From a virus: DNA of 28,892 bases. Each line of letters starts with the position of its first letter. Positions within the stretch are counted from its first letter, which is position 1. Positions 12,034 through 14,678 of the stretch are shown here, piece after piece. A model generated the notes under the pieces. That model was not told the DNA's origin and made no database searches. It saw only the letters and a program-made list of their open reading frames with translations. The position numbers and the translations under genes are program-made. The DNA lies in the IMG/VR virus record IMGVR_UViG_3300031951_000918, positions 1-28,892 of that record; one strand, 5' to 3'.

Positions 12034-12063
12034 TTGCATTCTCTCCCAATTTATGCCTATATA
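12034..12063 (+). promoter_or_regulatory. Promoter of the first right-block transcript
   Basis: TTGCAT (12034-12039) and TATATA (12058-12063) are 18 bp apart. The predicted start near 12070 coincides with a perfect hairpin CGACAC-GATGTT-GTGTCG (12070-12087), so the mRNA would carry a stem at its 5' end, followed by GGAG and the ATG at 12108. Confidence 0.5.
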
Positions 12064-12107
12064 TAAATACGACACGATGTTGTGTCGCATTACATTGGAG
12101 ATTGATT

Positions 12108-12395
12108 ATGTTCATTAACCCATTGAAGCACAACCAAATGTTTATCACACCAACTGCAGAGCAACTGATTGATACCGCAGACAGTATGACAAACAAAGCA
12201 GAAGCGTGGCAGATCATGATGTTAGCAATGAACTACTGCTACCAAGAAGTAGAGCGTGAAGTAGCGCGTGATGCTATCGATCGCAAGCGTGTCCGCATCA
12301 TTGCCAGACCTACTACACCAGCAGATGACGAAGCGCAAGAAGAAGAGAAACGTATCTTGTCACTCAACTATCTACTGAAGAATAAGAACATCTGA
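12108..12395 (+). CDS. Small acidic protein, first gene of the right block
   Basis: A 95-aa protein of unknown function, mostly helical (AEQLIDTADSMTNKAEAWQI, then NYCYQEVEREVARDAIDRKR) with an acidic/basic C-terminal third (TTPADDEAQEEEKRILSLNY). I use ATG 12108, preceded by GGAG at 6-7 nt, rather than an in-frame start 87 nt upstream that would begin before the promoter. Its last codons and stop form one strand of stem I and the core of the hammerhead motif at 12386-12437, so coding and ribozyme constraints overlap. As the first right-block gene it is probably expressed early. Confidence 0.7.
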   Translation: MFINPLKHNQMFITPTAEQLIDTADSMTNKAEAWQIMMLAMNYCYQEVEREVARDAIDRKRVRIIARPTTPADDEAQEEEKRILSLNYLLKNKNI

Positions 12396-12437
12396 TGAGT
12401 CTTTAATAGACGAAACTGCAGTGATGCAGTCATGTTC
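12386..12437 (+). ncRNA. Type I hammerhead ribozyme
   Basis: All parts of a hammerhead are present in order. Stem I strand GAACAT (12386-12391); core CTGATGA (12392-12398); stem II GTCT-TTAAT-AGAC (12399-12411), whose first pair is the preferred G10.1-C11.1; core GAAA (12412-12415); stem III ACTGCA-GTGA-TGCAGT (12415-12430), including the A15.1-U16.1 pair and a GTGA loop; cleavage base C17 (12431); stem I strand ATGTTC (12432-12437), fully complementary to the first. Stems II and III are closed and stem I is open, so it is type I. Every invariant core nucleotide is present. Predicted self-cleavage is between 12431 and 12432, separating the upstream gene's message from a 26-nt leader of the next gene. 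Confidence 0.9.
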
Positions 12438-12457
12438 AACTACTTGGAGATATCCAA

Positions 12458-12922
12458 ATGAAAGCACGCAAAGCAAACCCACTGATCACTGCAATCAACG
12501 ATCAGATCAAAACCTACAAACGAGATGCAAACACCTTCCACCAGAAAGCAACTCAACTAACCAAGGATCGTATGTTGATTCGCGCACTGTATGCCCCACT
12601 GTTTGTTAACTTCACCAGAGATGATCAACTCTTTGTTTCCATGTTTGGAGATCGTATCCACTTTAATGTGTATATGCGTGAACTCGATAGTTTCAAAGAC
12701 GAGCGTTTGCTCTCCATCTTGAACACTGCAATGGAAACAATCAGTGATTCTGTTAGAGAAAAAGACTATGCTCAATACGACCACAAAGAGTATTACATCA
12801 ATACAGACGATGTAAATTTGTGCATAACAGCCTATGTCAAAGAAGACAGTCCGACATGCAAGAAGATCATGACAGGCATGGAAGTGAAAGAAGTGCCGAC
12901 ATACAAGTTTGTATGTGAGTAA
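12458..12922 (+). CDS. Unknown 154-aa protein downstream of the ribozyme
   Basis: A 154-aa protein of unknown function. The N-terminal 40 residues are a basic helix (MKARKANPLITAINDQIKTY, then HQKATQLTKDRML); the rest is mixed alpha/beta with aromatic residues (FVSMFGDRIHFNVYMRELDS, HKEYYINTDDVNLCITAYVK). No catalytic or membrane motif is visible. TTGGAG precedes the ATG by 8 nt. The predicted mature 5' end of its message is the hammerhead cleavage site, and a strong terminator follows, so it is effectively a monocistronic message after cleavage. Confidence 0.75.
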   Translation: MKARKANPLITAINDQIKTYKRDANTFHQKATQLTKDRMLIRALYAPLFVNFTRDDQLFVSMFGDRIHFNVYMRELDSFKDERLLSILNTAMETISDSVREKDYAQYDHKEYYINTDDVNLCITAYVKEDSPTCKKIMTGMEVKEVPTYKFVCE

Positions 12923-13075: not shown

Positions 13076-13122
13076 ACAGTTCAGTTCGGTACTGTTTGCG
13101 GTGTCAGTCACACCGCGTTTTT
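13076..13122 (+). promoter_or_regulatory. Double-hairpin leader with U-run (possible attenuator)
   Basis: ACAGT (13076-13080) pairs with ACTGT (13091-13095). Next GCGGTGT-CAGTC-ACACCGC (13098-13116) is a perfect 7-bp stem followed after one G by five T residues, then TTGGAG and the ATG at 13136. The second stem plus U-run looks like a terminator inside the leader, so the gene may be controlled by attenuation, or the stem may only stabilise the mRNA. Confidence 0.5.
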
Positions 13123-13135
13123 CTTGGAGTTAAAC

Positions 13136-13813
13136 ATGAAAGCTAAAGCTACAGCTTCTGTCGATATGACCACAATCAACAAAGCTATCGCGGATACCTT
13201 TACACCACCATCCAGCATTAAAGACGCGGCTTACCGCTTCGCTCGTATTGGTGAAACTGCTACTGGACTCGCTCGGTTCATTATGGACTCTGCCCCTGAG
13301 TTTCCCGCTGAGACAAGCGCTGAACTCAAAGCGGATTTGTTTGCGGGTTTTATGACTCGCGCACATGAACTGTGGGGTCAGGACTACTTCACTCGCGGTG
13401 AAAGCGGTGTGCTCATCAAAGCGGGTAACTCGCTTGATGGTCAAGCCGAATATCCGAAAGGGTCAACGACACTCAGTCTCCACTACTGCTACTCATTCAG
13501 TCAGCAAGAGTTTGGTCAACTGAAAAACAAAGACCCACAGCTACATGGACTAGTCAAAATAATGCGCGACAAGTTCAGCAAGTATGCGTCAAACAACTTG
13601 TCAGCACTCAGGCGGTCAGCTAACAACCTACTGAATGAAGGTAAGACCCGCGAACGCGGTGCAACAAAAGCCTTTACTGAGTCTGTGACTGAAATGTTTG
13701 CTGACTATGACAAGCGAGTCAAGAACGCTGAGAATCGTGGAGACGATACAGCGAACCCCGCTAAGTTCAGAACAGCAAGAGACGCGTTCTGGAAAGCTTA
13801 CAACGCTAAGTAA
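13136..13813 (+). CDS. Unknown protein, paralogue 1 of a tandem pair
   Basis: A 225-aa, basic-to-neutral protein of unknown function. It shares with the next gene product the motif SFSQQEFGQL (SFSQQQFGQL in the partner), then KFSKYASNNLSAL, TRERGATKAF and NAENRGDDTANPAKFRTARD before a final DAFWKAYNAK. These blocks sit in the same order in both, so the two are paralogues. No known fold is recognisable; the conserved Arg/Lys/Gln blocks in the C-terminal half could contact nucleic acid. Start at 13136 follows TTGGAG; an upstream in-frame TTG at 13124 overlaps that site. It has its own terminator at 13820-13853. Confidence 0.75.
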   Translation: MKAKATASVDMTTINKAIADTFTPPSSIKDAAYRFARIGETATGLARFIMDSAPEFPAETSAELKADLFAGFMTRAHELWGQDYFTRGESGVLIKAGNSLDGQAEYPKGSTTLSLHYCYSFSQQEFGQLKNKDPQLHGLVKIMRDKFSKYASNNLSALRRSANNLLNEGKTRERGATKAFTESVTEMFADYDKRVKNAENRGDDTANPAKFRTARDAFWKAYNAK

Positions 13814-13819
13814 TTAGCC

Positions 13820-13853
13820 TGACCCTGCAGACCGAAAGGTTTGCGGGGTTTTT
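13820..13853 (+). terminator. Intrinsic terminator after paralogue 1
   Basis: CCCTGCAGACC-GAAA-GGTTTGCGGGG (13823-13848) forms an 11-position stem with GNRA-type loop and one mismatch, followed by TTTTT. The similar layout after paralogue 2 (GACC-GCAA-GGTT) suggests both terminators were copied with the genes. Confidence 0.8.
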
Positions 13854-14014: not shown

Positions 14015-14629
14015 ATGAAAGCAAAAACCCTCGTAGCATCCGCTACCCCTAGCGTAACGCAAGTTACATTTCTCTCTATCGATAACCTCAAGAACGCGGG
14101 TTACCAGTCGGCATTAGCCGTTGAACATCTTAGCCTTGTTGCCAAGTATGTCCTAGATGCTTGCCCTAACATCTTAGAAGATGTCCCTGCGGAAGTGAAA
14201 GCGCAACTAACGGAAGGTTGGGCGCTTCGTTGGCAAGAACTAAACCCAGCCAAGCGTTACAACACGGAATGGATACCCGATGCCAAGGGTGGCAACGAAG
14301 TAACCCTTGCCTATGCCTTGTCGTTCTCGCAACAACAATTTGGGCAACTACGACAAGCCGAGCCTATTAAGCATGGCGTGATTGGTAACGTAAGAACGCC
14401 ATTCAACAAGTATGCATTCAACAAGATGAAGGCTTTGCTCAAGGCTATCCGTGACCTCAACCCTGAGACAAGGGAGAGAGGAACTACTGATGACTTCGCA
14501 ACTTATGTTGGAAAAGTTATGGATACAATTAAAACTAGATGTAAGAACGCGAAGGCTAGGGGTGACACAACAGCCGACGAAGTTAAGACAAGGGTGGCAA
14601 TAGATGCCTTCCTGAAATCAATCAAGTAA
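14015..14629 (+). CDS. Unknown protein, paralogue 2 of a tandem pair
   Basis: A 204-aa protein. It shares with the preceding gene product SFSQQQFGQL (residues about 107-116), PFNKYAFNKM, TRERGTTDDF and NAKARGDTTADEVKTRVAID before a DAFLKSIK end. Both also begin MKAK. The N-terminal third has diverged strongly, so the duplication is old or the domain is under different selection. The ATG at 14015 follows GGAG by 5 nt; an upstream TTG at 13973 falls within the leader. It has its own promoter and terminator. Function unknown; the conserved C-terminal blocks mark the likely functional surface. Confidence 0.75.
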   Translation: MKAKTLVASATPSVTQVTFLSIDNLKNAGYQSALAVEHLSLVAKYVLDACPNILEDVPAEVKAQLTEGWALRWQELNPAKRYNTEWIPDAKGGNEVTLAYALSFSQQQFGQLRQAEPIKHGVIGNVRTPFNKYAFNKMKALLKAIRDLNPETRERGTTDDFATYVGKVMDTIKTRCKNAKARGDTTADEVKTRVAIDAFLKSIK

Positions 14630-14643
14630 TACTTGATTAGCCT

Positions 14644-14678
14644 AGCCCAGCCGACCGCAAGGTTGGTTGGGCTTTTTT
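14644..14678 (+). terminator. Intrinsic terminator after paralogue 2
   Basis: AGCCCA-G-CCGACC-GCAA-GGTTGG-T-TGGGCT with six T residues: a 12-bp stem with one internal mismatch and GCAA tetraloop. It separates the paralogues from the origin-like region. Confidence 0.9.

Follow-up and report, generated by a model that had tools for sequence, protein, structure and literature searches.

The window analysed here, the whole 28,892-nt stretch of a 28.9 kb virus record, is one of the metagenomic contigs on which this work is based, and it combines leftward structural genes (terminase, portal) with rightward genes that include a DNA polymerase A. The first of the rightward units contains a hammerhead element between two co-directional phage genes; the element, both genes and the promoter and terminator candidates around them map to the plus strand. 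Gene 1 (12108-12395) encodes a 95-aa product and diverges rapidly among relatives, and gene 2 (12458-12922) encodes a product of 154 aa with a 30% identical relative in locus L318. Neither has a family match, and fold prediction for the gene 2 product yielded no fold (pLDDT 39). A possible promoter (TTGCAT-18 nt-TATATA, 12034-12063) precedes gene 1 and is conserved in the related loci L004 and L005; a consensus promoter scan did not pick up this candidate. The terminator scan located a terminator-like hairpin followed by a U-tract 3' of gene 2 (13097-13117) and none between gene 1 and gene 2, and hence both genes are probably carried by one transcript. Further along, the genes at 13136-13813 and 14015-14629 are each followed by a strong terminator-like hairpin (13821-13850 and 14644-14673); the proteins of these two genes are similar by eye and may constitute a duplicated pair. 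In addition, the gene 1 leader contains a hairpin at 12070-12087 (CGACAC-GAUGUU-GUGUCG), and a different sequence likewise forms a hairpin at this place in L004, so that the 5' end of the message may be protected too.

The element spans 52 nt (12386-12437), and its gene joint is tightly packed. The 5' strand of stem I (12386-12391) consists of the last codons of gene 1, whose UGA stop (12393-12395) is the UGA of the CUGAUGA core. Cleavage is predicted, on the grounds of established hammerhead chemistry, between C17 (12431) and A12432, that is, 36 nt past the gene 1 stop and 26 nt ahead of the gene 2 ATG (12458). The leader of the predicted downstream product (12432-12457) comprises the 3' strand of stem I, the unpaired A2.7 and a GGAG Shine-Dalgarno sequence within a small hairpin (UUGGA-GAUA-UCCAA). 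This product would start exactly with an AUG, and the AUG-initial mini-ORF it opens (AUG UUC AAC UAC UUG GAG AUA UCC AAA UGA, 12432-12461) overlaps the start of gene 2. A leaderless mini-ORF read from the cut was considered and rejected: the AUG is probably a coincidence, since L004 has UUG instead, and most other families start without AUG.

Sequence, fold and detection of the element

The original prediction, made from the sequence alone, described a complete type I hammerhead that overlaps the stop codon of gene 1 and lies 26 nt before the next start. The first two points hold in full, all the named core nucleotides and pairs being present and the ViennaRNA minimum free energy (MFE) structure agreeing with them; the third holds for the distance from cut to ATG, as the 3' end of the ribozyme itself lies 20 nt before the ATG. 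Read 5' to 3', the element consists of GAACAU (stem I), the core CUGAUGA (12392-12398), stem II with its UUAAU loop (GUCU and AGAC, 12399-12411), the core GAAA (G12, A13, A14 and A15.1; 12412-12415), a 5-bp stem III hairpin with a GUGA loop (CUGCA and UGCAG) followed by U16.1 (12416-12430), C17, and AUGUUC (12432-12437), which pairs with the first strand of stem I. With U16.1 (12430) pairing to A15.1 (12415), stems I, II and III amount to 6, 4 and 6 bp. The consensus core (C3 U4 G5 A6 N7 G8 A9, G12 A13 A14, A15.1-U16.1 and H17) is present throughout, stem I is open and stems II and III are closed by loops, as befits type I, and the cleavage triplet is GUC. Hence, by every defining feature that sequence analysis can test, the element is a hammerhead. 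It shares with the Rfam family RF00163 (Hammerhead_1) all core nucleotides, the three stems, the open stem I and the GUC triplet; the phage set described below differs from that family in a stem I that is almost always exactly 6 bp and is closed by unpaired A1.7 and A2.7.

Folding of a 60-mer returned exactly the hammerhead structure as both MFE and centroid (-14.7 kcal/mol), and in growing transcripts the hammerhead stems either gave the MFE or lay no more than about 1 kcal/mol above it until the polymerase was some 50 nt beyond the element. In a 161-nt context the MFE becomes a competing pairing with gene 2, which we count against the reading favoured below. A switch in which gene 2 would pair with stem III in this way was examined and rejected, the complementarity being broken in L004 and showing no excess over controls.

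A descriptor comprising the core and stems of at least 4/3/3 bp matched once in the window and never in 200 Markov-1 randomised windows, both strands considered, and the element was absent from a whole-window cmscan reported up to an E-value of 5. A single-family Rfam search and a purpose-built model, R1, were used after this miss. The former matched RF00163 with 21.2 bits and an E-value of 2e-4, although below the 34-bit gathering score of the family. R1 was trained on pattern-scan sequences that include the window's own element, and its score for the window is therefore not independent. Across three array- or single-element phage records, with nearly all matches falling in two array contigs, 4 of 20 Rfam matches reached the threshold, from which it follows that 34 bits is too strict for the phage type I subgroup. 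A score below 34 bits thus reflects a shortcoming of the Rfam model, whose gathering score serves for detection and does not define the fold, rather than a missing hammerhead feature.

Homologous sites in related phages

In two loci, L004 and L005, the element occupies the same position as in the window. Gene 1 has strongly diverged in both of them, while the aligned stretch that opens with stem I and runs into gene 2 shows a single difference from the window: pair U1.1-A2.1 is A-U in L004, so that the leader differs by the compensatory base alone. L002 and L003, with the contigs they derive from, nearly duplicate the window and were excluded as independent evidence. A search with R1 of 50 whole IMG/VR records related by terminase produced 11 matches in 10 records, and these, together with L004 and the window, provided an alignment of 11 distinct homologous sites.

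In this alignment, 100% of the stem cells are paired and the core is kept at every site, in agreement with the conservation that the original prediction had proposed to look for in related phages. Eight pairs are changed on both sides, against a shuffle mean of 3.4, and the double-change cells number 21, against 4.6 in shuffles. All three stems covary: three pairs are changed on both sides in stem I, and stem II appears as GUCU, GACU, GACC, GGCU or GGGU with matching partners. The unpaired A1.7, immediately 5' of stem I (12385 in the window), is invariant (11/11). This pattern bears directly on two alternative explanations. A chance resemblance to a hammerhead, which the Rfam score below the gathering threshold might suggest, has next to no probability in our judgement, as it is contradicted by the covariation in homologs and by the absence of matches in the 200 randomised windows, and as most Rfam matches in the two array-bearing phages are also below threshold. 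Alternatively, the fold might act as a structured RNA rather than as a catalyst, either stabilizing the 3' end of gene 1 or serving as its attenuator, and the stable stems II and III directly after the gene 1 stop would suit such a role; every catalytic nucleotide is kept while the stems vary, the element lacks a following U-tract and the terminator scan was negative here, all of which makes this explanation very improbable.

The position of the element with respect to its neighbours is also maintained. The upstream ORF stops inside the ribozyme at 11/11 sites, at the UGA of the core in seven and at -3 or +12 in the remaining ones, and the cut lies 19-26 nt ahead of the ATG wherever the next ORF is readable (the L319 contig ends too early for an ORF call). 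Several different genes occupy the downstream position. Since the register is kept while the downstream genes differ, the combination of stop, ribozyme and leader acts as a module that is conserved while the genes around it change. One relative, L321, carries two hammerheads, one on each side of a small gene, and the window carries only one; grouping of several hammerheads is common among intercistronic phage hammerheads but is no requirement.

The distribution of this module is patchy. The remaining 40 of the 50 terminase-relative records have no R1 match, and while many of them are fragments, some are long, which points to gain and loss of the module. DSL-LC04, HTVC023P and MinM2, whose terminases are the nearest among named phages, lack the element, a blastn search of named phages with 2 kb around it returned no match, and neither did a pattern scan of genome contigs. 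The absence from the nearest named phages and the presence in only 10 of 50 records, many of them fragments, count against the reading favoured below and make the element dispensable on longer timescales.

The stop, cut and start register in unrelated phages

Beyond these relatives, IMG/VR was examined with two exact pattern scans in which the core and stem II are partly prescribed, one with stem II as GUCU..AGAC (89 stretches) and the other as GCC..GGC (at least 120 stretches). ORFs were taken from depositor annotation in some cases and otherwise assigned by a simple calling rule. Among the matches listed, stem I is exactly 6 bp in 146 of 155 type I cases; with shuffled flanks, stems I and III form in 0.5% of trials. 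In an alignment of 72 phage hammerheads, a set that was picked for intact stems, double-change cells number 312, as compared with 71.5 after shuffling. A1.7 and A2.7 lie outside this selection, and their conservation (72/72 and above 90%, respectively) is for that reason more telling than stem covariation in this set. The first base of loop II is a U in more than 90% of cases and no pseudoknot pairing was seen; the three bases suggest a contact between stem I and loop II, of the tertiary kind that fast hammerhead cleavage relies on, with A1.7 as a probable tertiary-contact base.

The register seen in the window recurs in this broader set. Among the matches listed, an ATG-initiated ORF begins within 45 nt after the cut in 102 of 140 non-redundant type I loci, as compared with 19% of random same-strand positions, with a median distance from cut to ATG of 26-27 nt. 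Broken down by scan, and again among the matches listed, the figures are 39/58 for the first pattern and 63/82 for the second, which was run after the register had been noticed. Upstream genes stop inside the ribozyme or at most 5 nt 5' of it in 97 of 132 listed cases, and across the 140 listed loci stop codons cluster at -15 to +5 of C3. This clustering, the stop inside the ribozyme at all the homologous sites and the competing long-range fold could all reflect a regulated switch, in which the cut is conditional on ribosome position, Mg2+, a ligand or a protein and sets the ratio of gene 1 to gene 2. We consider it unlikely: the flanks show no conserved sequence resembling an aptamer, the competing pairing behaves in L004 and against controls as described above, and genome compaction could also lead to tight packing of stop, ribozyme and start. 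A gene family shared by the downstream genes was sought and discarded (105 downstream proteins match 28 scattered PHROGs, none of these with more than five members).

As a separate observation, ten loci (L020, L030, L037, L061, L091, L104, L109, L121, L134 and L202) have no start codon after the cut and present there a recurring RNA of about 110-130 nt, with ACCUUCCGGU near its start, AGUAG...AACCGGA near its end in several loci and a tRNA nearby in some. It has no Rfam match in L037 and L104, and the downstream RNA of the AAGGAC group has no supported consensus fold.

In 49 whole contigs R1 finds 112 hammerheads, and in each of the 19 contigs with at least two, all lie on one strand. The T7-like contig G013 (IMGVR_UViG_3300042884_000166, 39.8 kb) has 14 type I hammerheads and its 39.8 kb relative G023 (3300044732_000574) has 13, on one strand in each case and spanning the early region to the late genes (loci L213-L214 and L218-L219); in G013 the gene for a single-subunit T7-type RNA polymerase has a hammerhead on each side. 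A third contig, G034 (L216, 70000-82750), holds seven near-identical units of ribozyme plus leader before different genes, with 44-45 nt from cut to ATG, and these units make up a predicted repeated expression cassette. Among named phages, R1 matches OLIVR1, elemoA, Jormungand and PaP3. An annotated gene starts 26 nt past the cut in OLIVR1; Jormungand departs from this arrangement, as no gene start is annotated shortly downstream. In Flavobacterium phage elemoA (L226, 1167-1274), a hypothetical gene annotated on the reverse strand overlies the hammerhead, probably as an artefact of annotation.

Hammerheads of other topologies occupy comparable positions. Type III elements likewise sit just ahead of start codons, and type II hammerheads (RF02276) are found 12 times in Streptomyces phage Paedore (L227, MH001460) and nine times in R4 (L228, JX182370), on the strand that also bears the genes at 42-51 kb. 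Every one of the 12 Paedore elements is located in a gap between CDSs annotated by the depositors, on the local gene strand, and none of them is annotated in the stretch of the record that was examined. The product that retains the ribozyme differs among types I, II and III, so that what they have in common is the position of the cut. This observation also weighs on the notion of a selfish or neutral cassette that spreads among intergenic regions without any function for the phage. The seven G034 units and the variety of genes downstream of the element in the window's relatives would fit such a cassette. Compensatory changes, on the other hand, indicate selection for the fold, a neutral insert is not expected to show a fixed start/stop register and a one-strand orientation, and the presence of all three topologies at gene joints implies that what these sites have in common is the cut and not a mobile sequence; we therefore regard a functionless cassette as quite improbable.

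Proposed transcript cleavage between the two genes

The interpretation that we consider likely is that the hammerhead cuts a bicistronic phage transcript co-transcriptionally and thereby separates the messages of its two genes. A transcript running from gene 1 through gene 2 to the terminator would be cut during its synthesis, 3' of C12431, with the ribozyme most likely folding as it leaves the polymerase and cutting before downstream sequence can compete. This would yield a gene 1 message whose 3' end is a folded stem III bearing a 2',3'-cyclic phosphate, and a gene 2 message that opens with a 5'-OH and a fixed leader of 26 nt, which includes a Shine-Dalgarno sequence of its own. Once separated, both messages could decay and be translated independently, and the ribosome-binding site of gene 2 would be freed from its upstream context, as in engineered hammerhead insulators. 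Because the stop codon sits in the catalytic core, a ribosome terminating on gene 1 should mask the ribozyme and thereby postpone cleavage; we regard this sub-step as speculative and rather doubtful. A genetically encoded cut between the two messages had been put forward in the original prediction, and the data analysed here lend it support: the sites covary in three stems while both neighbouring genes change, and the same register is found in unrelated phages, in one-strand arrays and between independently annotated genes, all of which is consistent with a message-separating function.

Several known systems offer points of comparison. Polycistronic early and late mRNAs of T7 are cut at intergenic hairpins by RNase III, a process that requires this host enzyme, whereas the window RNA would cut itself without one. 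RiboJ, an engineered insulator derived from the type III hammerhead of sTRSV, is placed upstream of a ribosome-binding site and strips its upstream 5' context; the window element is natural, intercistronic and of type I. The theta/HDV-like ribozymes of gut phages are self-cleaving RNAs of DNA phages, as the window element is predicted to be, but they differ from it in fold and are associated with tRNAs, whereas the window element is set at a gene joint.

The closest precedent is the work of Perreault et al. 2011 (PMC3088659). There, hammerheads in phages and prophages, PaP3 among them, were proposed to divide long transcripts into mRNAs the length of an operon or a single gene. Tandem hammerheads cut polycistronic RNAs of about 2 kb in vitro, in three arrangements, and those of A. 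tumefaciens, one arrangement, cut in E. coli. Self-cleavage of the window element, its co-transcriptional timing and its effects on stability and translation would follow from hammerhead chemistry and from this precedent. Those systems, like ours, lie between phage genes, but they are tandem where the window element is single, and the text consulted makes no mention of a stop inside the ribozyme, of a spacing of about 26 nt from cut to start or of arrays of 12-14 per phage. We found no report of the stop/cut/start register, of dozen-per-phage arrays or of the A1.7/A2.7 signature in the published literature searched, which took in few subscription papers and no preprints. Within that literature, the fold and the 2011 idea of transcript splitting are known, and the register and its scale are apparently undescribed.

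The occurrence of the same type of cutter at gene joints of related and unrelated phages, in some of them at nearly every operon joint, suggests that it may be a general, enzyme-free way of splitting messages. Taken further, hammerheads of three topologies with fixed stop-start spacing might punctuate the transcripts of many DNA phages and be their main form of mRNA processing, independent of host RNases, with the 14 sites of G013 and the 12 of Paedore as extensive cases and the window element as a single-site member; we put this forward tentatively, as a proposition slightly less likely than not. As the Rfam type I cut-off misses most such elements, annotated phage genomes probably under-report hammerheads. 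A 2017 review (PMC6155905) termed the role of hammerheads in bacteria and phages an open question. The register described here, its recurrence in unrelated phages and the existence of cultured carriers, such as Paedore and R4 in Streptomyces and OLIVR1 in Agrobacterium, make the question of hammerhead function a directly experimental one.
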